A stretch of 33,270 nt of DNA. Source: Phycisphaerales bacterium (lineage in GTDB: Bacteria > Planctomycetota > Phycisphaerae > Phycisphaerales > UBA5793). The notes under the pieces are model-generated. The model ran no database searches and had not been told where the DNA came from. It was given only the letters and a program-made list of their open reading frames with translations. Shown here one piece after another: positions 3,905-16,239 of the stretch; positions within the stretch are counted from its first letter, which is position 1; every line of letters starts with the position of its first letter. The stretch spans positions 1 through 33,270 of the forward strand of contig JADZAS010000022.1 in the NCBI GenBank assembly GCA_020852515.1, given 5' to 3'. The translations under genes were made by a program, and so were the position numbers.

Positions 3905-4025
3905 TGGATTGATTCGGTTTGGTATGGCCGATCGTTGACAAGGGAACAGTTGGAAGGGCGCTTAGCCGAACGTTGCCGGACGGCCGCCTCTCGTGAGAGA
4001 GACGAGGTTGTGATGACGATTTCAC

Positions 4026-4043
4026 CAACCGGATCGCTCCGGG
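4026..4043 (-). other. Possible 3' half of the 16S processing stem
   Basis: The 16S trailer sequence can pair with the leader at 5593-5613: CAAC, GATCG and CCGG blocks line up with small internal loops. Such leader-trailer stems are cut by RNase III to release pre-16S rRNA. The pairing was found by eye and was not folded. Confidence 0.4.
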
Positions 4044-4062
4044 AGGGTGTCTACGGATCCCG

Positions 4063-5577
<1,515 letters not shown>

Positions 5578-5592
5578 ATTATCGTTGCACGA

Positions 5593-5613
5593 CCGGGACG
5601 AACCCGATCGTTG
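5593..5613 (-). other. Possible 5' half of the 16S processing stem
   Basis: This leader segment, about 20 nt upstream of the mature 16S 5' end, is complementary in three blocks to 4026-4043. See that entry for the pairing. Confidence 0.4.
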
Positions 5614-5883
5614 ACGCATCGATGAGTAGTTTGCCTGTACACCCCCGCCAGCCGAATCGGCCGGCGCGGGTGGGTCATTCGATCCGAAGATCGATTCCGT
5701 TGCGGCTAGACAACGGACAAATGGAAACCATCCATTCGCTGGAATTGAATTCAGCGTCACAAGGATGCTTCCAGGCCGGGGCTGTGACCCCCCGACCGAT
5801 GGATTTCGCCCTCCGCCAGCCCTGTGAAAGGCTGACCTCGGGCCGCACCCTCGCGGCGTTTGTACATTTACCCAACTGTTCAC

Positions 5884-5896
5884 TTTTCAAAGAGCG
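5884..5896 (-). promoter_or_regulatory. boxA antitermination site of the rRNA leader
   Basis: On minus CGCTCTTTGAAAA closely matches the bacterial boxA (TGYTCTTTRAAAA type). It lies about 90 nt downstream of the predicted start and 310 nt before 16S. BoxA recruits NusB/NusE and, with NusA, protects rRNA transcription from early termination; nusA is encoded in this same window. Confidence 0.75.
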
Positions 5897-5992
5897 GGTC
5901 AGTCGCAGTCCTACGATGGTCGGCCGGGGCCGGTTCGATGACTGGATGACAAATCAGCCGATGAACGTCGCCGTTCAACGACACGCAAGGGG

Positions 5993-6020
5993 ATGATAGA
6001 CTGCACCCCGAGAGGGTCAA
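5993..6020 (-). promoter_or_regulatory. rRNA promoter
   Basis: On minus, TTGACC (6020-6015), a 16-nt spacer, then TATCAT (5998-5993): 5/6 matches at each box. An A-rich run (CAATCAAAAATG, 6034-6045) sits upstream where an UP element would be. The predicted start is near 5986, giving a leader of about 410 nt with boxA. No other strong pair was seen upstream. Confidence 0.75.
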
Positions 6021-6186
6021 GGCAGCGAAGATCATTTTTGATTGCCGCCGCGCCCGATTCCGCTCCAGGCTGCCGCAAACGGCTGTTTTTGAAGATCTTG
6101 CGCCGTCGGGGCCCCTTGGGACATGCCAGGACTGCGGGAAGCACCTGACGCGCCGCCGGCCATGTGGAAAGTGGTCCCGAGGCCAT

Positions 6187-6223
6187 GGATGGCGGTGGAT
6201 GGCGGTGGATGGCGGTGGATGGC
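6187..6223 (+). repeat. 10-bp tandem repeat (GGATGGCGGT, about 3.7 units)
   Basis: Three perfect units at 6187-6216 followed by a partial one. It lies in non-coding sequence upstream of the rRNA promoter, and copy number is likely to vary. Between 6021 and 6427 nothing else was recognised. Confidence 0.85.
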
Positions 6224-6427
6224 GAAATGGCGTCAAACTCGAGGGGGTTCGCGAGGCCGCAAGGGGGTTTGGGTGGTTGGCAGAGTCTTTCACGAGGCTG
6301 CCGGTGATTTCGGGAAGGGGTTGTGGCCTCCGGGGGCCGCCGGCGCCGAAGCAGTGCTGTGCGGGGGCCCTTTGACAACCGGGGGCTGCTTCTGGTACAT
6401 TGAGCGGGTGAGGCACTTCGAGCGATT

Positions 6428-6680
6428 CGCCAACTCGGGCTGGACCCGCTCTGCCCCTCGCCGGCAAGGCGCGGCGGCCGGCACGCTGGAGGAAGCGGCG
6501 GACCGCATCGTGAGTGAGGCGGACGGCGGCGGCGATGGGTTTGCAGCACATGTTTCGGCCGCGCGGCCGGCCGAGGAAGGGGCAGCGGCATGAGCAGACC
6601 TAATAAACGTACCTGTCCCGTTTTCTTGCCCCGTTTTCTTGCCCCTTGCCCGTTTTCTTGCCTGTCCCGTTTTCTTGCCC
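6428..6680 (+). repeat. Dispersed repeat copy R1 with reiterated terminal motif
   Basis: From CGCCAACTCGGGCTGGAC to the terminal AACGTACCTGTCCCG this is about 85-90% alike to the reverse complement of 13038-13227, judged by eye. The end motif CCCGTTTTCTTGCC is repeated about four times between 6616 and 6680. Related copies lie at 8385-8520 (opposite strand), 11326-11472 (same strand) and 13038-13227 (opposite). It may be the end of a decayed transposase gene (one frame in copy R4 reads RRRGRPREAVTA) or a non-coding mobile repeat. It carries no intact gene. Confidence 0.75.
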
Positions 6681-6848
6681 GCAGATGAGGGCGGATTGCC
6701 TGAGCGGGTGAAACGGGGGATGCGGCATAATTCTGGAACGGCCCGGGTCCTGGCGACGTGTCGGCGTGATCTCGGCCAATCAGCCTGACTCGGTCGACAG
6801 GGGGCACCATCCCGAGCGGTGGACCCGACAAGTAGACGGAGGGATGAA

Positions 6849-8354
6849 ATGTCAGCTCGATATCAGGTGTATCCGATCGGCGTTCTGTGCATTCTCGCTG
6901 CGGCGTCGTGGGCGACATCCGTCCACGCCCAATGCGATTTGATTTTTGAGCGGCAACTCGTTTCGTCCGACGGGAGGGAAGGCGACCTGTTCGGCACGGC
7001 GATCGCCATCAGCGGAGATCGCGCTGTTGTGGGGGCCAGTTACGCGGAGGATCCCGCGGAGAACGCAGGCGCGGCGTACCTCTTCAACTACGTGACGGGG
7101 GAAGAACTCGCCAAGTTCATCGCCGGCGACGGGACGGCCGGGGATGAGTTTGGCGAGACGGTGGCGTTCAGCGGGAGCCGAATCGTGATCGGCGCGCGCA
7201 AGGATGACGCCAATCGAGGTTCGGTGTTCGTCTTTGATGCAGATTCATACGAGTTGCTCTTTGAACTCGCCGCGGAAGATCGCGACCTTGGTGATTCGTT
7301 TGGCGCTTCCGTCGCGCTGATCGGATCCACGGCGATCATCGGCGCTACCGGCGATGATGAACGAGCCAACGGCGCCGGAGCGGTCTACCTTTTTAATACG
7401 AATACAGGTCGGCAGATTCGCAAGATCCTGGCGTCGGATGGAGCGGAGGCCAATCGATTCGGAGAGGTGGTGGCGACGGATGGTCGCCACGTCGTGGTGG
7501 GCGCGCCCGGGGCAAACATCTATGCAGCACGATCCGGCGCCGCATACGTATTCGACGCTCTGACGGGCGTCGAGGTATGCAAACTGATTCCGGATGTTGG
7601 AGCGGAACGGGATGAGTTCGGCGCATCCGTTGCTATTCGAGGCGGACTGGCGGTGGTGGGCGCTCCATATCGAGCCGAGGGCGCTCAGCAATGCGGCGCC
7701 GTTTTCGTATTTGATGCTTCGACCGGCGAGCAACTGCTCAAACTCGTGCCGGCGGACGTCACCTCGGGCAAGTACTTTGGGCGCTCCGTCGCCGTCGACG
7801 GGAACCGGATTCTGGTTGGCGCATCGGGCGACTCCCATCTCGGATTCCGAGCCGGCGCGGTGTACCTCTTTGATGCTTCGACCGGGGTAGAACTGAGGAA
7901 AGTTGTCGCGCCTGATGGGGGCGCGATTCGCCAGCTCGGCTGGGCCATCGCGGTGGCGGGATCAACCGCGATCGTCGGATCACCGGGTAACGGCCCCGTC
8001 GAGAACCCTGGTGCTGCGTACGTCTTTTCGATCGAGTGTGGACTGACACTCGCATCGCTTGGATCTTGCCCGGGATCGATGCTCTTCAAATTCACTCGCG
8101 CAACGCCGGGCGCAACAGTGGCGCTTCTCGCCGCGCTGCGGGAGGGCGAATTCGCAATACCGAATGGGAACCCGTGCGCCGGAACACGGCTTGGCCTCGA
8201 AGGGCGCATTCGAGTCGCCACCACAAAGCAGGCCGGATTAGACGGCTCCGCGGCTGTTCCGGCGTATGTGACGCAGCAGGCCTGCGGCCAAATACACTTG
8301 CAGGCGATCGATCTGGCTGACTGCGAAACCTCGAACGTGATTCTTCTTGACTAG
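6849..8354 (+). CDS. Exported FG-GAP beta-propeller protein
   Basis: Protein of 501 aa. A signal peptide (VLCILAAASWATSVHAQC) ends near residue 28, so the protein is secreted. About seven repeats of roughly 50-60 aa follow, each of the form 'FG.(S/A)VA..G...(V/I)GA......GA(V/A)Y(L/V)F...TG', as in integrin-alpha-like FG-GAP propellers, to about residue 395. The last 105 residues form a separate domain with several Cys (SCPGSMLFKF, IPNGNPCAGTRLGLEGRIR, QQACGQIHLQ, ADCETSNV) that is shared with the protein starting at 32289. ATG 6849 is chosen over a longer frame because GGAGGG precedes it by 5-6 nt and the signal peptide begins there. It stands alone between inverted copies R1 and R2 of the dispersed repeat. 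The ligand is unknown. Confidence 0.85.
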   Translation: MSARYQVYPIGVLCILAAASWATSVHAQCDLIFERQLVSSDGREGDLFGTAIAISGDRAVVGASYAEDPAENAGAAYLFNYVTGEELAKFIAGDGTAGDEFGETVAFSGSRIVIGARKDDANRGSVFVFDADSYELLFELAAEDRDLGDSFGASVALIGSTAIIGATGDDERANGAGAVYLFNTNTGRQIRKILASDGAEANRFGEVVATDGRHVVVGAPGANIYAARSGAAYVFDALTGVEVCKLIPDVGAERDEFGASVAIRGGLAVVGAPYRAEGAQQCGAVFVFDASTGEQLLKLVPADVTSGKYFGRSVAVDGNRILVGASGDSHLGFRAGAVYLFDASTGVELRKVVAPDGGAIRQLGWAIAVAGSTAIVGSPGNGPVENPGAAYVFSIECGLTLASLGSCPGSMLFKFTRATPGATVALLAALREGEFAIPNGNPCAGTRLGLEGRIRVATTKQAGLDGSAAVPAYVTQQACGQIHLQAIDLADCETSNVILLD

Positions 8355-8384
8355 CGCCGCCATGCAGCTTCGCATCAGCGGTGA

Positions 8385-8520
8385 GGCAAGAAAACGGGGC
8401 AGGTACGCTTATGGGTGCGATTCATGCCGTTACCGCCTTTCGCGGGCGGCCCCGTGGGCGAATTTGGTGCACCGGGCCGGGCGCTGCCGCGGTCCGCTTC
8501 ATCCACCCTGCACTCGACGC
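8385..8520 (-). repeat. Dispersed repeat copy R2
   Basis: On minus it ends with AACGGCATGAATCGCACC and AAGCGTACCTGCCCCG then TTTTCTTGCC, the same end as R1 but in the opposite orientation. The inner part is more diverged. It lies 30 nt past the stop of the FG-GAP gene, so R1 and R2 point their terminal motifs at that gene from both sides. Confidence 0.7.
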
Positions 8521-8694
8521 CGCGATTGAGGACGTACGCAGGCGTAGCCGCCGGGCGCAGGTCGAGCAGGGCGAGGCATGAGAAGTTCCAGGCGCGTCGC
8601 GGGCCGCGACGACCGAGGTCGCTCTGATCTCCAGAAAACACGTACCGGTCCGACCTTTCCCGTTTGTGCTTGTCGTTTGTTTGCTCGTGTATTT

Positions 8695-8735
8695 GCTCCC
8701 GTTTGTTTGCTTGTCCCGTTTTCTTGCCGCTTTCC
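8695..8735 (+). repeat. Dispersed repeat terminal fragment R3
   Basis: GCTTGTCCCGTTTTCTTGCC and flanking degenerate units match only the terminal motif of R1. It follows a stretch of related T-rich degenerate sequence from about 8640. Confidence 0.5.
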
Positions 8736-9375
8736 TGCCCGGGTCGATGAAAGTGCCGGCACGATCGTGTGGGGATGTCGAATCTGCTTTCCATGGCTTA
8801 TCCGTTGGAAAGACGACGGTTTGGTAGTCACATCCCCGCCGAGACATGGCATTTAGAGAGATACTGCTTGCATTCCTCATTCCGCAGCGTACACTTGTGG
8901 TAGATCGCGGAGAGGAGCCTGTAACAGGCAAGCGTTCCGCGTCGGAAGATAAAGCAAAGGGCAGTTCGCTTCCCCGCTCCGGAACCCCGGAACTTGAGCG
9001 AAAAGCCAGTTGATGAATAAGCCGATCTAGTTTTGCACTTTATGTGCGGAGCTTGGTCGGCTTGTCGTTTTTGGTTCACGCAGCAAAGACATGCTACTAC
9101 CTGGGCGCAAATCGGAAGGAACCTTGTGCGAACATCCGAACAGACCACATCCGCAGACAAGCAAGCACCCGACAACGGACGCCAAGAGCCAACCCGTGAT
9201 GCTCCACCGCGCGTCGTCGTGAACGGCGAGGCTCTCAACCTCACGCTTGATACGGAACTGAGGCCGGTAGAGAACACGGCTTTCAAAGCAAGCCGCTGAC
9301 TGAGTGACCGGGGGCATATCCGACTCTGAGTCGGAAAGACGATGCACGACTGACATACCTCTGAAGGAGAGCCAC
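8736..9375. other. Gene-free stretch before the stress-type trio
   Basis: No gene is convincing in these 640 nt. Reading frames exist on both strands but have no recognisable domain, atypical composition and no good start context. A minus-strand frame near 9027-9318 has a hydrophobic segment with several Cys (LLASVVGCLLVCGCGLFGC), yet lacks a clear ribosome-binding site. The base composition is visibly lower in GC than that of the flanking genes. Confidence 0.4.
9319..9335. promoter_or_regulatory. Perfect palindrome upstream of the DUF892 gene
   Basis: TCCGACTCTGAGTCGGA: 8-bp arms around one central base, 40 nt before the ATG at 9376. It suits a dimeric repressor operator or a short mRNA hairpin. 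No factor can be assigned. Confidence 0.4.
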
Positions 9376-9867
9376 ATGAAGATCAATACACTTGCCGATC
9401 TCTACCTGGAACAGATTCGCGACATGCACAGTTGCGAGCGCCAGATCATCACAGCCCTGCCGAAGATGGCTAAGGCCGCCAATCACCCGAAGCTGAAGAA
9501 GGCGTTCGAGGAGCACCTTGAGGAAACAAAAGTGCATCTGGAGCGGCTTGACAGCATTCTGAGCGATCTGGAGAAGCCCGCCGGGCGTCAGGTGTGCGCG
9601 GCGGCGGCGGGCCTGATGGAGGAAGCTGACGGAGTGATGAAGAACGAGGGCGATGAAGAGGCTCGCGATGCCGGCCTCATCTGTGCAGCTCAGAAAGTCG
9701 AGCACTACGAAATTGCCTCCTACGGCTGCCTGCGGACGTATGCGACCAAGCTCGACCGCGAGCAGGACGCCAAGCTCCTGGAGAAGACGCTGAAAGAGGA
9801 AAAGCACTCAGATGTGGAACTCACCAAGCTTGCCATGAGCGCTGTCAATGACGCCGCAATGGTGTGA
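9376..9867 (+). CDS. Ferritin-like YciE/YciF family protein (DUF892)
   Basis: Protein of 163 aa, the usual length for the family. It begins with the hallmark LADLYLEQIRDMHSCERQI and continues as a four-helix bundle with carboxylate/His positions that could bind two metals (E at the start of helix 1, HLEETKVHLERL, KVEHYEIASYG, EEKHSDVELTKLA). YciE/YciF-like proteins are linked to osmotic, oxidative and biofilm stress; their reaction is not settled. The start is ATG 9376 with AAGGAG 7 nt upstream. It is first in a loose same-strand series with a BON-domain lipoprotein and a YflT-like protein (gaps of 97 and 120 nt), suggesting a shared stress role. Confidence 0.9.
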   Translation: MKINTLADLYLEQIRDMHSCERQIITALPKMAKAANHPKLKKAFEEHLEETKVHLERLDSILSDLEKPAGRQVCAAAAGLMEEADGVMKNEGDEEARDAGLICAAQKVEHYEIASYGCLRTYATKLDREQDAKLLEKTLKEEKHSDVELTKLAMSAVNDAAMV

Positions 9868-9964
9868 TGGAGATCGTCTCGCTCTGCGTGCACCTAATCC
9901 CGCTGATTCGTTCACCAACCCCTCTGATCGCGACACCTTCATTGCGACGGAACGGAGATTCGTC

Positions 9965-10399
9965 ATGTACCACACTACGACTTGTATTGCGTTGATCGCT
10001 GCCGGCTGTGTCTTCAGTCTGGCCGGCTGTGACTCGAGGGATGAGTCCCCCGCGGCGAGCACTTCACAACCTGCGCCGGCCCGAGGCACACCGACCACTC
10101 CAGCCGACCACATGGACGGGACGAGGGACGATGTCGGGGAAGACGGCAAGACGCCGATGGATCAATCCCAGGCCAGTGAGCATATCAAGCAGACGGCTGA
10201 TATTCGGCAGGCCGTTATCGCAGATGACACGCTGTCCGTTGGTGCGAAGAACTGCAAGATCATTACCGACGAGTCAGGCACAGTCTGGCTTCGAGGAGTC
10301 GTAGATTCCCAAGCCGAAAAGGATCTGATCGAACGACTCGCCGTACAGATTGCCGGCTCGAACAACGTGATGAACGAATTGGAAGTCCGTCCCAACTGA
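9965..10399 (+). CDS. BON-domain lipoprotein
   Basis: Protein of 144 aa. The N terminus is a lipoprotein signal ending in the lipobox LAGC (Cys22), so it should be lipid-anchored. A Ser/Pro/Thr-rich linker (about 25-70) leads to one BON domain: IRQAVIADDTLSVGAKNCKI, GTVWLRGVVDSQAEKDLIERL, and VMNELEVRPN with the expected gxVxLxGxV core. BON proteins (OsmY, YgaU) bind membranes and counter osmotic or envelope stress. ATG 9965 has CGGAG 8 nt upstream; an in-frame extension to 9848 lacks signal features. Confidence 0.9.
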   Translation: MYHTTTCIALIAAGCVFSLAGCDSRDESPAASTSQPAPARGTPTTPADHMDGTRDDVGEDGKTPMDQSQASEHIKQTADIRQAVIADDTLSVGAKNCKIITDESGTVWLRGVVDSQAEKDLIERLAVQIAGSNNVMNELEVRPN

Positions 10400-10519
10400 T
10401 TCTCGCGTTCGTGAATGGCATGGTTCAGACCCGCTGACGGTTTCATACCCGATCAGTGTTCACCCCACACGTTCCTGCAACGCCTGTTGCATAGAACACA
10501 CTTAGGATGGAGCATATCA

Positions 10520-11212
10520 ATGAGTAAGTCTGTATTCTGTGTTGCACCGTCTGAGACAGTTGCCAATGCAATCGTTTCCCGCTTGAAAGCCGGGCCGTTT
10601 GCGGACAACGACATCTCAGTTCTGTTCCCCGACAAATCCACAACTCGTGATTTTGCGCACGAGATGAACACGAAGGCCCCCGAGGGCGCGCTCACCGGTG
10701 CGGGAGCGGGAGGCGTCATCGGCGGCACGATCGGTCTTCTGGCCGGCATCGGTCTGCTGGCGATTCCCGGGCTGGGCCCGTTTATCGCCGCGGGCCCCAT
10801 CATGGCGTCGCTCAGCGGTATCGCGGCCGGCGCAGCGATTGGTGGCATCACGGGGGCCCTGATCGGCATGGGCATTCCAGAGATCGAAGCCAAGCGCTAT
10901 GAAGATAAAGTGAAAGATGGAAACATCCTCATCGCCGTGCATGCTGAGGACTCAGAGCAAGTAGATTTGGCCAAAGAGATCTTCGAGAGCGAGCACGCGA
11001 CGGACATTACCACTGGTTCGATGGGCGATGCTCCGGAAGCTGAAGACACGGAGGCGTCATCGCCGGATGCACGTCGCAATCGAGAGGCAGCGGCGAGGGT
11101 CGGGCCTGCGCAGCGTGTTGACAGGGCTCGTGACTACTCGGACGCCGAGAAGTCAGCCACGCGGACCACAGCAGGGCGTGATCCGGTTCGAGTTCACCGC
11201 AATTCGATCTAA
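10520..11212 (+). CDS. YflT-like stress protein with glycine-zipper membrane segment
   Basis: Protein of 230 aa. Residues 1-60 (SVFCVAPSETVANAIVSRLK, ADNDISVLFPD) fit the general stress protein 17M/YflT-type fold that opens many such proteins. Residues 58-120 are a glycine/alanine-rich hydrophobic stretch (GAGAGGVIGGTIGLLAGIG, then AAGAAIGGITGALIGMGIP) that can insert in membranes. A second alpha/beta segment follows (GNILIAVHAEDSEQVDLAKE), then a charged, probably disordered tail. ATG 10520 has GGAG 7 nt upstream. It is third in the trio with the DUF892 and BON genes and is followed by a perfect hairpin at 11250-11274. Confidence 0.8.
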   Translation: MSKSVFCVAPSETVANAIVSRLKAGPFADNDISVLFPDKSTTRDFAHEMNTKAPEGALTGAGAGGVIGGTIGLLAGIGLLAIPGLGPFIAAGPIMASLSGIAAGAAIGGITGALIGMGIPEIEAKRYEDKVKDGNILIAVHAEDSEQVDLAKEIFESEHATDITTGSMGDAPEAEDTEASSPDARRNREAAARVGPAQRVDRARDYSDAEKSATRTTAGRDPVRVHRNSI

Positions 11213-11249
11213 GGCGTGATTTGATTAGCCGGAAACCCAGGCCACGGTC

Positions 11250-11274
11250 GGCACGCCGGTCAATCCGGCGTGCC
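11250..11274 (+). terminator. Perfect 10-bp hairpin after the stress trio
   Basis: GGCACGCCGG and CCGGCGTGCC pair fully around a 5-nt loop (TCAAT), 38 nt past the stop at 11212. No T tract follows, so it may be a factor-dependent terminator or a 3'-end stabiliser. Confidence 0.5.
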
Positions 11275-11325
11275 AGCCGGGGCCTGCCTCGGATGGAGAG
11301 CAGGCGCTGCCATTCGTCGTGGGTC

Positions 11326-11472
11326 AAGCGGACGGTGGCGGCGCTGGGTCTGGAGGACACGTTTCGGCGGCGCGGCCGACCGCGAGAGGCGGTGACGGCA
11401 GGAGGCGCTTCGGCAAATGCACCTGTCCCGCTTTCTTATCCGATAAACGTACTTGACCTGTTTTCTTCTCCA
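11326..11472 (+). repeat. Dispersed repeat copy R4
   Basis: The segment GCGGACGGTGGCGGCGCTGG, the CACGTTTCGG block and the GCGGTGACGGCA block match R5 and R1. One frame reads RRRGRPREAVTA. The end is degenerate and doubled (CACCTGTCCCGCTTTCTTAT, then GTACTTGACCTGTTTTCTTC). Its end overlaps the 3' end of the minus-strand gene that stops at 11436. Confidence 0.65.
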
Positions 11473-12134
11473 ATTTGCCTATCCGCCTGCCTCTTTATCT
11501 CTCCCCCGCACTCCGGGCATACGGGCGTATATAGATTTCGAACGTCGTAGCCGCAGGTCGGGCAGACCTTCATAAATACGCGCGCAACCCGCCGAATATC
11601 CTTTGGCAACTGAAAGATACAATATAGCACGATGCTATAGAATACAGTATTCGCAAGTAATCCAATGGCGATTGGATGTCCCGGTAGGTGCCCAATTGGG
11701 CAGTATGCACCAGACTCTGCGACCCTTCGCATCCACTCGACCCCCCAATCTCCGTGCCGAAACTCTTGTGGGCGGCCTCTCTCGGTGTCCCAGAGCGGCG
11801 ACCGAGTCGTGCGCGAACCGTACATCGAGCGCCACGGCCAGCCGCTTGAGAACTTGATTTGGCTCCAATCAGCAATATCGGATTCTGATTCTACAAACAT
11901 AGGCCGCACAGCCACAGATACTGTAACTCCGACAGCGTCTCGCGTGTACTGATGCGTCGGTTTGTCTGGAAGACGTGCAATGCGAATAGAGTCTGGCCAC
12001 TTCCCTCCCGCTCGTTCCTCGAGCCGACCTGTCCTCGCATCAAAAGTCAGTGCGCATGTCCACGATGCGCAGATCGACAAGGCGCACCCCGATGCGGCAA
12101 GAATAATCCCCTTTAGAGCCCACCTCAGCGTCAC
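11436..12134 (-). CDS. Membrane protein with C-terminal zinc ribbon
   Basis: Protein of 232 aa. There is a hydrophobic segment at residues 8-29, an extracytoplasmic region of about 125 aa with no recognised fold, a second membrane segment near 156-175 (ANTVFYSIVLYCIF), then a cytoplasmic zinc ribbon CPTCGYDVRNLYTPVCPECG with Cys191, 194, 206 and 209. The 'CP.CGYD(L/V)R.L....CPECG' tail is a familiar signature of many Phycisphaerae membrane proteins of unknown role. The start is GTG 12134, overlapping the stop of the upstream gene (GTGA), so the two are probably translationally coupled. The stop lies inside repeat R4, so the last residues may be recent. Confidence 0.75.
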   Translation of the reverse strand: MTLRWALKGIILAASGCALSICASWTCALTFDARTGRLEERAGGKWPDSIRIARLPDKPTHQYTRDAVGVTVSVAVRPMFVESESDIADWSQIKFSSGWPWRSMYGSRTTRSPLWDTERGRPQEFRHGDWGVEWMRRVAESGAYCPIGHLPGHPIAIGLLANTVFYSIVLYCIFQLPKDIRRVARVFMKVCPTCGYDVRNLYTPVCPECGGEIKRQADRQIGEENRSSTFIG

Positions 12135-12982
12135 TTCCTAAGCTCCTGGGTCTCATCCCCATCGACGGCTGTGAATACAGTGCTTGGCGCCGCCATCAGC
12201 ATTTGCGATTCGCTCGAGTCTGGTCTTGCCACTCGTCGATGTATGGCGACCAATTCCCTCCAACCATCGTCCACGTGAATATGACAGTCCCTGATGGCCG
12301 CATTACCCTTAGATCGCACGAGGCGCTCTAGGTTTGACAGCGGACTCTCGTCGGCCTCAATGACCGTCTGATCCTCATGCGCGGGAGAATGAATATCCTT
12401 GACCGTTCGGAATCTCACACAGTAGAATTGCCCCTGCTCAAGCGGTGCATCAAGATACACAACAGCAGAGTATATCATAATGTAGTCGCCGCCTGACGTA
12501 GCGAGATAGCCATTATAATCTACCACACCGGGGTGGATCTGCATCGCCTTCTCGAGAGCTGAGTATACCGCGATTTCCTTGCCGTCGGGGCCAAGAATCT
12601 GAATGAGTTCCGACATCGATCCGTCGAAGATGCCCTGCAGCGATTCGCACACCGCTAACAACGACTCTCGTGAGCCGCGGATATAGATGTCAACCAGGCA
12701 CTTTTTGTTCATTGGGGACGGCAGGTCTGCCGGAGCGCGTAAGCCGATCGGCACAATGAGGAGCTGTATGGCATCAGGCATTTGCATTCCGAGCGGAATG
12801 CCCACCATCGAATGCGCTTCTCTCAAGTACTGCCAATAAGACTCAGCGTCGGCACGAGATTGGATGTGGGTGCGTTCCGAAGGAGGTCTTCCTCTTTCGA
12901 TTGCGGCGGCCGAGGCACCGAGAACAGCGACGGTAGTCCCAAGGAGAATCGCCAAGGCCGCCATGGTCGAATGCCCTTTCAT
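12131..12982 (-). CDS. Exported protein of unknown function
   Basis: Protein of 283 aa. Residues 1-27 form a signal peptide (MKGHSTMAALAILLGTTVAV, cleavage near ASAAA). The rest is a soluble domain without a motif I recognise; SYWQYLREAHSMVGIPLGMQ and FRTVKDIHS are among the more ordered stretches. A frame 16 codons longer exists, but ATG 12982 has AGGAGG 6 nt upstream and starts the signal peptide. It overlaps the zinc-ribbon membrane gene by 4 nt, and the pair is bracketed by repeats R4 and R5. A joint envelope function is inferred from coupling only. Confidence 0.75.
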   Translation of the reverse strand: MKGHSTMAALAILLGTTVAVLGASAAAIERGRPPSERTHIQSRADAESYWQYLREAHSMVGIPLGMQMPDAIQLLIVPIGLRAPADLPSPMNKKCLVDIYIRGSRESLLAVCESLQGIFDGSMSELIQILGPDGKEIAVYSALEKAMQIHPGVVDYNGYLATSGGDYIMIYSAVVYLDAPLEQGQFYCVRFRTVKDIHSPAHEDQTVIEADESPLSNLERLVRSKGNAAIRDCHIHVDDGWRELVAIHRRVARPDSSESQMLMAAPSTVFTAVDGDETQELRK

Positions 12983-13037
12983 TGAGCGCCTCCTGTGATT
13001 CGAGGATTTGAGCTGTAGTATGTCATTCATTGCTGGA

Positions 13038-13227
13038 AATAAAACGGGACAGGTACGTTTTATCGGGTCTGCTCATGCCGTTACCGCCTTCCGCGGCCGA
13101 AACGTGTGCTCCAGACCCAGCGCCGCCGCCGTCCGCCTCACCCATGATTCGGTCCGCCGCTTCCTCGAGCGTGCCGTCGGCCGCGCCTTCCCGGCGAGGG
13201 GCAGAGCAGGTCCAGCCCGAGTTGGCG
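13038..13227 (-). repeat. Dispersed repeat copy R5
   Basis: Reverse complement of an R1-like unit, from the terminal AAAACGGGACAGGTACG at 13041 to CCCGAGTTGGCG at 13227. It lacks a short GC-rich insert that R1 has before the GGAAGG block. It sits 56 nt upstream of the exported-protein gene and faces R4 across the gene pair. Confidence 0.75.
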
Positions 13228-13373
13228 TCTCTCTGGCGCAGGATCACGCTGTCAATGTAATTGAAAGTGCCGCTGCCGTCAAGGCCCGCCTGGTGGGGAA
13301 CGAAGAGTTCCTTGATTGTCATCGTCAGCGCGATAGACAGCCAGCAGCCGCCAGCGCTCGTCGTGGACGAAGC

Positions 13374-13425
13374 AAACGGGGAAGAAGGCGGGACAGGTAT
13401 ACCTGGTCCGTTTGTGTACTCGTGT
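13374..13425 (-). repeat. Dispersed repeat terminal fragment R6
   Basis: AAACGGGGAAGAAGGCGGGA followed by CAGGTATACCTGGTCCG matches only the terminal motif, in the same orientation as R5. The TATACC core is part of a short palindrome (CAGGTATACCTG). Confidence 0.5.
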
Positions 13426-13508
13426 TCTTGGCTGGATGGGCTTGATTGGGACGTCAGAAGGCGGCATGGACGCTTCTCCGGGCCACGCCACCTCGTCGCG
13501 GAGAGGCG

Positions 13509-15485
13509 ATGGACGACGCGTTCATCCTCGGGCTGCTAAGATGCTCAGGTGCGGCGCCGACCGCAGCAATCCGCCTGGGTCGTCGTCTGGCTCACGATAG
13601 TCCCCTTGCAGGAGAGCACGAGACCTTGGAACTTCCTCGTCGGCCTCGTGGTGATGAACTTCTCGAACCCGGCGCGATGACGGCCCTCCGTCATCGTCTC
13701 AGACGCCATGCCCCGCTGCATGATCTGGCGACCGTCGTCGCCTGTGCGTTCGACCATCGCACGCGGATGCTCCCGTTCATCTTTGCCGACACGCGCATGG
13801 CGCCGGCGGGCATTCGTGCGATCGGCTCGGCCCTGGCGGACGTCGGCTTCGAGAAGACGCGGCTTGTGCTCCAGCAGTGGAATCGCCGATTCCGGCCCTC
13901 GCAGATGCGCCTGGACGGTCGCATCCCCGACCTGTTCATGGTTTCGAGCATGGGAATGCACGAGGCGGCCTGCAAGGAACTGGTCCGCGATGCGAGGAGG
14001 ATTGATCCCGCCCATCGCCCGCTGATCGTCGTCGGTGGATCGCACGCGGTGTACGAGCCGTTCAAAGTCTTCAGCGCCGACCCGGATGATCCCTCCGGGC
14101 CTGATGTGGCGGTAACGGGCGAGGAGTTTGTGCTGCTCAGCCTGCTCGAGGCAGTGCTGTCGGTTCGCGCCAGAGGCGAAGCAATGCGCTTGGCGTTTGC
14201 CCGGGCCCGCGACAAAGGACTGCTCGACGAGATCCCCGGTCTTGTCTACCCGCTGGGCGCACGTGATGGCGTCGCCGAAAAGTTGATTGATACGGGTACG
14301 CAGAGGCTCCTTGGCGATCTGGACGAGTTGCCGCATCCGGTTCTGGGCTACCGGCTCCTCGAGGCGCCGAGTCGGGCGTCGAATCTTGCGCCTCGGGCGA
14401 TGCCTGCGGATCGCGTGCGTAAGCATTCGCCGATCAGTTCGCTCGTGATGACGTTCGGCTGCAAGTTCTCCTGTCCGTACTGTCCGATCCCCGCGTACAA
14501 CCAGAGGCAGTATCGAACCAAGAGCCCGGAACGGATTGCCGATGAGATGGCCCGACTCAACGGCGAATATGGACTTCGGTACTTTTTCGGCACCGATGAC
14601 AACTTCTTCAACGACCATGATCGCGCCCTGAAGATCGCCGAGACCCTGGCCCGCACCGAGGTGGATGGATCGCGGCTTGGTTCGAAAGTCCGTTGGGGTA
14701 CTGAGGCCACGGTTCACGACACACTCAAGATGAAGGAGCACCTGCCACTGATGCGCGAGGCGGGATGCCGCGGGCTGTGGATCGGGGTCGAAGATCTGAC
14801 TGCAACCTTCGTCAGGAAGGGTCAAAGCGTCGACAAGACCACCGAGGCGTTCCTATCCCTGCGCGAGGTGGGCATCTGTCCGATGCCGATGATGATGCAC
14901 CACGACTCGCAACCGCTGTACACGCGCAAGGGCGACTACGGCCTGCTCAACCAGGTCCGCCTGTTGCGAAGGGCGGGCGCCGTGTCGCTTCAGGTGCTGA
15001 TGCTCGTGCCCTCGCCGGGCAGCAAGTTGTACCACGAGACCTACACCTCTGGACAGGTGTTCGATCGGGTTGGCGGGCGGCGCGTTGATCCGTACATGCA
15101 CGACGGCAACTACGTCATTGCTTCGCATCACCAGCACCCGTGGAAGAAGCAACTCAACATCCTCGCGAGTTACTCGTATTTCTACAACCCGTGGTGGCTG
15201 ATCGTGGCGCTCTTGAGAAAGACCAGCGTCGGCGATAAACCCGCGAGCGCCCAGGTCTTCGGCATGCTCGGCAACATCCAGAACATCCGCCGCACACTGG
15301 GCTGGGCGTTTCGGTTGATGTTCATGAAGATTCGCCGGCATACACAACCGCCGCGCAGCACGATTCCGATGCAGAGCGTCGAAGGGACGCAATCGATCCA
15401 CACGCGCCCGATCGTCGTGGTCACGATTGATCCTGCGGCGAGCTTGTCGAAACAGACCGACCGCCTGAGTCGATCCCGCTCGTAG
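13509..15485 (+). CDS. B12-binding-type radical SAM protein
   Basis: Protein of 658 aa. The N-terminal half contains a Rossmann-like region compatible with a cobalamin-binding domain (PDLFMVSSMGMHEAACKELV, RPLIVVGGSHAVYEPF, DVAVTGEEF). The radical SAM cluster motif is CKFSCPYC (Cys318, 322, 325), ligating the [4Fe-4S] cluster that cleaves S-adenosylmethionine. Downstream, FFGTDDNFFNDH, RWGTEATVH and LWIGVEDLT follow the usual order of the TIM barrel. The C-terminal 150 residues are basic and may contact membrane or substrate. ATG 13509 is preceded by GGAGAGG; a 21-residue extension in frame looks untranslated. It stands alone. The family includes methyltransferases and enzymes of lipid or cofactor synthesis; substrate unknown. 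Confidence 0.85.
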   Translation: MDDAFILGLLRCSGAAPTAAIRLGRRLAHDSPLAGEHETLELPRRPRGDELLEPGAMTALRHRLRRHAPLHDLATVVACAFDHRTRMLPFIFADTRMAPAGIRAIGSALADVGFEKTRLVLQQWNRRFRPSQMRLDGRIPDLFMVSSMGMHEAACKELVRDARRIDPAHRPLIVVGGSHAVYEPFKVFSADPDDPSGPDVAVTGEEFVLLSLLEAVLSVRARGEAMRLAFARARDKGLLDEIPGLVYPLGARDGVAEKLIDTGTQRLLGDLDELPHPVLGYRLLEAPSRASNLAPRAMPADRVRKHSPISSLVMTFGCKFSCPYCPIPAYNQRQYRTKSPERIADEMARLNGEYGLRYFFGTDDNFFNDHDRALKIAETLARTEVDGSRLGSKVRWGTEATVHDTLKMKEHLPLMREAGCRGLWIGVEDLTATFVRKGQSVDKTTEAFLSLREVGICPMPMMMHHDSQPLYTRKGDYGLLNQVRLLRRAGAVSLQVLMLVPSPGSKLYHETYTSGQVFDRVGGRRVDPYMHDGNYVIASHHQHPWKKQLNILASYSYFYNPWWLIVALLRKTSVGDKPASAQVFGMLGNIQNIRRTLGWAFRLMFMKIRRHTQPPRSTIPMQSVEGTQSIHTRPIVVVTIDPAASLSKQTDRLSRSRS

Positions 15486-15525
15486 TCCGCATGCCGGGTA
15501 CGCCGGCGCGGGTCGTCGCACGTTC

Positions 15526-15557
15526 GTGGATTCCTGCCTGCGCAGGAATGACGGGGG
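15526..15557 (+). repeat. REP-like palindrome
   Basis: The stem ATTCCTGC/GCAGGAAT (8 bp, loop CTGC) within GTGGATTCCTGCCTGCGC...AATGACGGGGG is the widespread REP-type element whose translations read 'VIPAQAGIH' or 'DSCLRRNDG', both visible here. It sits between two convergent genes, the typical place for such repeats. Confidence 0.75.
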
Positions 15558-15633
15558 ATGTCGTTGCACGTTTGCACTCAGCATGCTTCACGCAGAGCCG
15601 GTGAAGCATGGCACCCCTGGGGCACCCCGTCGG

Positions 15634-16239
15634 TCAGTCGTTGTGTCTCTGGCGGAGGCGGGGGCTCAATCGGAGAAGGAGCTGGATGCGTTCGAACTCG
15701 TCGAGCCAGTCCTGAAGGGTGGCGAGGAGCTGGTCGGTGGGGATGGGCGCGCCGGGCAGCGGGCAAGCGGGGCCAAGCTGGGAGTCGGCCAGGGCGCGGT
15801 AGCGCGTGAGGGTCCGGTCGCCGTAGAGGGAGACGAACTCATCGTCTTCAGCGAGGAAGAGGACGGTGGGCACGCGGGCGCCCTGGTTGATGTGCACGAG
15901 GCCGGCGAGGTCTTTGTGCTGATCGCGGTCGAGCCAGACGAGGCTGATGCGCTCGGATGCTTCGGCGATGCGCTGGAGGAGGGGGCCCTGCTGGACGCAG
16001 TCGCCGCACCAGATGCCGGAGATGCAGATGACGTGCATGTCTCGCTTGAAATCGGCAAGGAGTTTGCGCTGGGAATCGGTGAGGGTGATCTGGTTGTAGA
16101 TGCCCTTCCAGGCTTCCTGCTGGGAGAGTTTGCCGGTGGCGAGGTAATCGTCCCACGAGAGGCCGGCCTCGAACTTAGCGGCGAGGAAGTTGCGGTTGAG
16201 TGCGGGGGCGAATGCAGAGGCGGAGGCGACGGTGGTCAT
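15634..16239 (-). CDS. Thioredoxin-like protein
   Basis: Protein of 201 aa. After an N-terminal region of about 65 aa (FAPALNRNFLAAKFEAGLSW) comes a thioredoxin fold with the redox motif WCGDC in ICISGIWCGDCVQQGPLLQR, and the cis-proline loop GARVPTVLFL. No signal peptide is evident, so it is probably cytoplasmic. The form resembles the bacillithiol/'thioredoxin family protein' group seen in many planctomycetes and Bacteroidetes, with a CGDC rather than CGPC active site. The start is ATG 16239 with AGGA about 8 nt upstream. It converges with the radical SAM gene and has no partner on its strand. Confidence 0.85.
   Translation of the reverse strand: MTTVASASAFAPALNRNFLAAKFEAGLSWDDYLATGKLSQQEAWKGIYNQITLTDSQRKLLADFKRDMHVICISGIWCGDCVQQGPLLQRIAEASERISLVWLDRDQHKDLAGLVHINQGARVPTVLFLAEDDEFVSLYGDRTLTRYRALADSQLGPACPLPGAPIPTDQLLATLQDWLDEFERIQLLLRLSPRLRQRHND

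Follow-up and report, generated by a model that had tools for sequence, protein, structure and literature searches.

Among the closest described relatives of the repeat analysed here is the REPtron, which comprises RAYT (TnpA_REP) transposases, REPs, and BIMEs or REPINs (PMC6006769, PMC3116915, PMC2817692). As in the REPtron, the repeat features one full HuH/Y1 transposase of its subfamily, inverted repeated ends and many dispersed intergenic non-autonomous copies, however, its ends lack the GTAG/GTGG foot and form weak hairpins. In the non-autonomous form, the transposase gene has also retained its two ends, whereas a REPIN consists of two REPs close together. Two RAYT subclasses have been reported in which no REP-like sequences were found (PMC6006769). 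Neisserial intergenic mosaic elements, which feature the 20-bp dRS3 repeat, ATTCCC-N8-GGGAAT, occur in association with cell-surface protein genes (PMC3898611). These mosaics share with the present system a short palindromic repeat, arrays in the gaps beside variable surface-type genes, a prophage link and a proposed role in recombination, but their sequence is unrelated, and the repeat here is linked both with a transposase gene and with a single family of zinc-ribbon membrane proteins. MITE-like internally deleted IS also have terminal inverted repeats, a lost transposase core and one deletion junction in many copies; the parent here is a Y1 (HuH) and not a DDE transposase, and no target duplication is definable. 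Chromosomal integron cassette arrays are similar in that single genes are split by a repeat that recurs, for the most part in one direction, however, the separators here are RAYT remnants instead of attC and the genes come from one family.

The window, which is the whole stretch of DNA that was analysed (33,270 nucleotides), is the entire contig C22 of a 39-contig, 4.72-Mb genome (G000) that is 96.7% complete and whose closest named relatives are MAGs of Phycisphaerales/Planctomycetota. The safest description of its repeat is a decayed, still repeated RAYT family, and copies of this family with an internal deletion punctuate arrays of variable genes. It is quite likely that the repeat represents a family of RAYT elements together with non-autonomous remnants that accumulated beside hypervariable genes, where they may also aid the gain, loss and swapping of those genes. 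A RAYT lineage without canonical REPs gains clear inverted ends and a transposon-like anatomy, related transposases have an equal layout across several genomes, and the elements are tied to a very large, fast-diverging gene family, members of which are carried by prophages too. If it is true that the elements help to move genes, this would be a gene-capture route that is not described for RAYTs in the cited literature.

The full element and its remnants in the window

The 20-bp end motif ACCTGTCCCGTTTTCTTGCC was searched with up to 3 mismatches, with 100 dinucleotide shuffles as the control for the window and the reversed pattern as the control for the genome. The window has 9 matches compared to a mean of 0.00 in the shuffles. 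The repeat copies seen in the sequence-only reading are confirmed, with the orientations given there. Genome-wide there are 54 matches (30 forward and 24 reverse) and 0 for the reversed pattern; a solo match at C26:66420, with 3 mismatches, was left out as probable chance. The core of the family's end in this genome is AAACG-N9-CGTTT, the end is ~20–28 bp long, and its hairpin potential is present but weak (z −3.4, −2.5 kcal/mol). In many places the motif recurs in tandem at a ~17-bp period (L062:1335-1371, L060:3859-3895, L061:4162-4198), and both members of each re-iterated pair have an identical local variant. The outer border of the element is blurred by these 17-bp re-iterations, and a target site duplication or a target is not definable.

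The full copy consists of a Y1_Tnp gene (C15:103428-104108) that encodes 227 amino acids and is located between inverted copies of the end motif. The protein matches PF01797 (Y1_Tnp) over the cut-off, and its catalytic HuH (HWH) motif and tyrosine are intact. The match to NF047646 (REP-associated tyrosine transposase) has an E-value of 2.3e-19 and 69.7 bits, compared to a curated cut-off of 80 bits. No solved structure of a transposase relative was found by sequence. Inspection of both element ends revealed no GT[AG]G tetranucleotide at the foot of the hairpin, and the element is therefore classed as RAYT-type and not as a canonical REP system. The stop codon of the transposase gene overlaps an ATG (ATGA), the start of a short frame that crosses the right end (L062:2098-2140), and in several arrays this frame runs in frame into the downstream gene. 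A conserved N-terminal extension of the gene, read from within the element (MSRPDKRTCPVFLP), was considered and rejected, as inspection found ~5 of 12 genes in frame, which is not convincingly above chance.

The copies R1 (+), R2 (−), R4 (+) and R5 (−) all align to the 3′ end of this one element, covering the last ~40 codons of the transposase gene and the right end, and R2 additionally aligns to the 5′ part. The copies are therefore remnants of a RAYT-type element, and the earlier suggestion of a decayed transposon family is borne out by the alignment to the full copy on C15. R1 features an upstream part (6428-6500, +) that is outside the known RAYT element and matches R5 (13155-13227) as well as the sister genome G004. 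The R1 body (6500-6631, +) contains a decayed transposase 3′ end and the right end and corresponds to element positions 684-816 with 89% identity, and its right end motif (6603-6680, +) is re-iterated four-fold. R2 consists of a 3′ end remnant (8385-8506, −; element 694-815, 74%), with the right end motif at 8385-8404, and a 5′ part remnant (8516-8609, −; element 65-157, 80%); judged by this alignment, R2 is an internally deleted copy that kept its 5′ part and 3′ end. A motif match at 8709-8728 (+) is an end fragment that is probably the left end of the R2 element. R4 is a 3′ end remnant (11316-11474, +) that aligns to element 691-812 with 78% identity over 11316-11437, and it has a right end motif at 11421-11440 (+) and a second, degenerate motif at 11443-11474 (+). 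R5 is also a 3′ end remnant (13035-13155, −; element 684-815, 80%) with its right end motif at 13035-13054. It is joined by a companion stretch (13155-13370, −) that is partly common to R1 and is dispersed in G001, G003 and G004, and a further end motif fragment matches at 13379-13398 (−). R1 and R5 share a longer common stretch (arms 6396-6563 and 13092-13259, 168 nt, 85%) and form a second derivative with the extra stretch at 13155-13370, which is present in G004 too. The positions and strands reported earlier stand, and the two end fragments reported with them are located at 8709-8728 and 13379-13398. R2 is now extended to 8728 and the common stretch of R5 to 13259, and there are small corrections in that the sequence next to R5 runs to 13370 and R4 gains its degenerate motif.

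R1 and R2 flank a gene for an FG-GAP_2 repeat exported-type protein (6819-8354, +; Pfam E-value 1.7e-89). R4 and R5 flank a TM-GWP-TM-zinc-ribbon gene (11436-12134, −), which is a member of the array gene family, and a gene for an exported orphan protein (12131-13030, −), whose start codon is 5 bp from the end of R5 and which has no relative among 30 related genomes. The motif does point inward around 6819-8354 and around 11436-13030, as was first noticed. Each full element has outward-facing ends, so the inward-facing motif around genes is a by-product of the element anatomy and the pairing itself is therefore not special. On balance, the R1/R2 pair is better regarded as a coincidence, in which two independent decayed insertions flank an ordinary gene. 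The FG-GAP gene is outside the array gene family, and R1 and R2 are unlike in structure and age (89% vs 74%), although the distances of 139 bp from the R1 right end to the gene start and of 31 bp from R2 to the stop codon are array-like. This coincidence is compatible with the RAYT explanation, including a possible part in gene gain, loss and swapping, for the remaining copies. Further along the window, 15511-15620 is a short repeat that has several tandem copies on contig C32 of G004.

Internally deleted copies and arrays of membrane/zinc-ribbon genes

At least 8 copies of ~300 bp in the genome are without the middle of the transposase gene and keep both ends. The deletion removes 492 bases after base 198 in 7 of the 8 copies and 515 bases after base 175 in the other one. 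The 8 array copies are 86–95% identical in DNA, with a mean of 90%. In the proposed mechanism, the autonomous form would be a HuH/Y1 transposase gene between two inverted, weakly hairpin-forming ends. One internal deletion would have cut out the catalytic middle and produced an element of ~300 bp that still had its two ends. This short form then spread, presumably through mobilisation in trans by the full-length transposase.

The arrays are located at the ends of contigs C2, C15, C19, C21 and C37, which are assembly break points, and almost every interval in them is occupied by one gene or two genes from the same membrane/zinc-ribbon family. The proteins feature a membrane helix, a variable part, a GWP motif, a second membrane helix and a C-terminal CxxCGY...CxECG zinc ribbon. 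The predicted structure fits this layout, with a pLDDT >90 in the helices, near 90 in the ribbon and poor between them, and the family has no Pfam match over the cut-off. The window gene at 11436-12134 belongs to the family with an E-value of 1.7e-46, being itself among the 14 rows of the profile. As bounds only, the family has at least 70 and at most 263 candidates in G000; at least 63 members are found in 4 of the 5 genomes of the genus and 25 in the fifth. The array genes are mutually 17–37% identical in protein, ~23% overall, compared to ~90% for the element DNA, and the arrays are therefore not simple duplications. Tandem duplication of gene and element together was rejected on the same comparison, unless the elements were homogenised.

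Element or motif clusters border a family gene in 7 of 14 cases in G000 and in 13 of 38 cases over G000, G001 and G004. Assuming that 3.5, 6 or 13% of gaps border a family gene, the binomial tail is 2e-7, 6e-6 and 9e-4 for G000 and 3e-10, 1e-7 and 7e-4 for the three genomes, respectively; these cluster counts are small, hand-made and approximate, and the clusters are partly dependent, since arrays break off where contigs do and may be connected. The association with exported accessory genes that was first suggested for the window holds genome-wide and in two sister genomes. A chance pairing, which the sequence-only reading had allowed for, is ruled out for the family association, whereas the pairing of R1 and R2 around the FG-GAP gene may be coincidental. 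In a hand-read table, 14 of the 17 right ends point towards the start of a gene, at a median distance of 36 bp. Within this genus, copies of the element would have piled up beside the hypervariable membrane/zinc-ribbon genes, with the right end usually tens of bases upstream of the start, and the R1/R2 and R4/R5 groups of the window would be decayed members of the same arrangement. The repeated copies could then serve as homology patches, and possibly as transposase substrates, so that the segments between them may be gained, lost or swapped.

There is a chance slightly short of even that the elements have no part in gene movement and collect in the short intergenic gaps of fast-changing, non-essential islands because insertions there are harmless. 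This explanation and the one in which the elements aid gene gain and loss differ solely in the last step, which we infer. Many family members, including tandem groups, are without any element, and such element-free islands, together with element homology that is recent beside genes that are old and diverged, fit harmless accumulation. However, some arrays have elements in nearly every gap and others have none, the orientation is mostly the same, and one cassette, C21c, has element ends on both sides. The fate of one array gene in G003 and G004, where it is element-free, is in favour of harmless accumulation and is described below.

Presence and absence in related genomes and the prophage link

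The C2 array is located beside an MTAP-type phosphorylase gene, where both the elements and the array genes are missing in four sister genomes. At the loci on the C21 side, two of three relatives lack both genes and elements, and G004 has both. The empty-site junction is not definable at the C2 and C21 arrays, where the flanks are too variable between genomes. For the window, the G001 allele lacks 6040-15634. In G001, 4001-6040 adjoins the gene at 15634-16207, so 9.6 kb differ, and the breaks at 6040 and 15634 are away from any motif. The stretch at 4001-6040 is 94% identical in G001 and 83% identical in contig C5 of the same genome as the window. A clean empty site or excision at the motif was looked for and not found in G001, the sole absent allele examined.

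For the array gene at L060:6452-7159, relatives occur in G004 (90%) and in G003 (78%), both away from any element, and the similarity to the G003 relative is confined to the span from start to stop codon. The G004 relative belongs to a tandem group of six genes that is flanked by a HARE-HTH gene and a ParB-methyltransferase gene. These two flanking genes delimit a module, and each genome of the genus has numerous copies of it. The variable cargo slot of the module holds zero to six membrane/zinc-ribbon genes, and copies are located at L133:1-7001 (G004:C58) and on contigs C1, C3, C24, C30, C35 and C36 of G000. One copy shares its contig with genes for a terminase and a head protease, and the modules are therefore most likely prophages. 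The zinc-ribbon family, whose profile is too diverged for a search of IMG/VR, was found in none of 80 viral loci that carry the flanking methyltransferase. The C21c cassette, which contains L060:6452-7159, matches the G004 cargo slot nearly whole, to 3–5 bp from the element ends. This match and the relatives in G003 and G004 indicate that the membrane/zinc-ribbon genes do move and that prophages carry them.

By analogy with the neisserial mosaic repeats (PMC3898611), it is plausible that the elements contribute to gene exchange, either through homologous recombination or through the transposase. It is unlikely that the elements act as a cassette platform, in which the RAYT or homologous recombination on ends facing a gene from both sides mobilises that gene and single-gene capture makes the arrays grow. 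The presence of genes and elements coincides at the examined loci, C21c corresponds almost end to end to a piece of prophage cargo, and the array genes are mutually diverged (17–37% identity), as such capture would have it, however, neither transposition nor an excised circle nor a clean empty site nor a donor-recipient pair with elements on both sides was seen, and an array gene moved also without an element. The cassette-moving element suggested earlier is not supported here, given the off-motif breaks in G001, the array gene that is element-free elsewhere and the inward motif that is a by-product. More doubtful still is that RAYT elements form a trading platform that, by means of inward-facing transposase ends flanking single genes, shuttles membrane/zinc-ribbon genes between prophage slots and chromosomal arrays, which would be gene capture built on a HuH transposase and not on an integrase.

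Related transposases in other genomes

Among the homologous transposases from other genomes that could be scored, ~20 of 23 have a flanking inverted repeat above all 100 shuffles, and the typical form of this repeat is AAA(A)GGGGAC...CTTTT. The folding of the motif varies among these relatives; several fold no better than shuffles and others form a strong palindrome. Outside the genus, remnants beside the gene family were not seen in G008, G010, G025 and G034. G008, an order-level relative from another family, has its own internally deleted RAYT copy, in which amino acids 1-39 are beside amino acids 157-223 (L200:3184-3469, G008:C109). This copy is apparently independent, and the deletion form therefore probably arose more than once.
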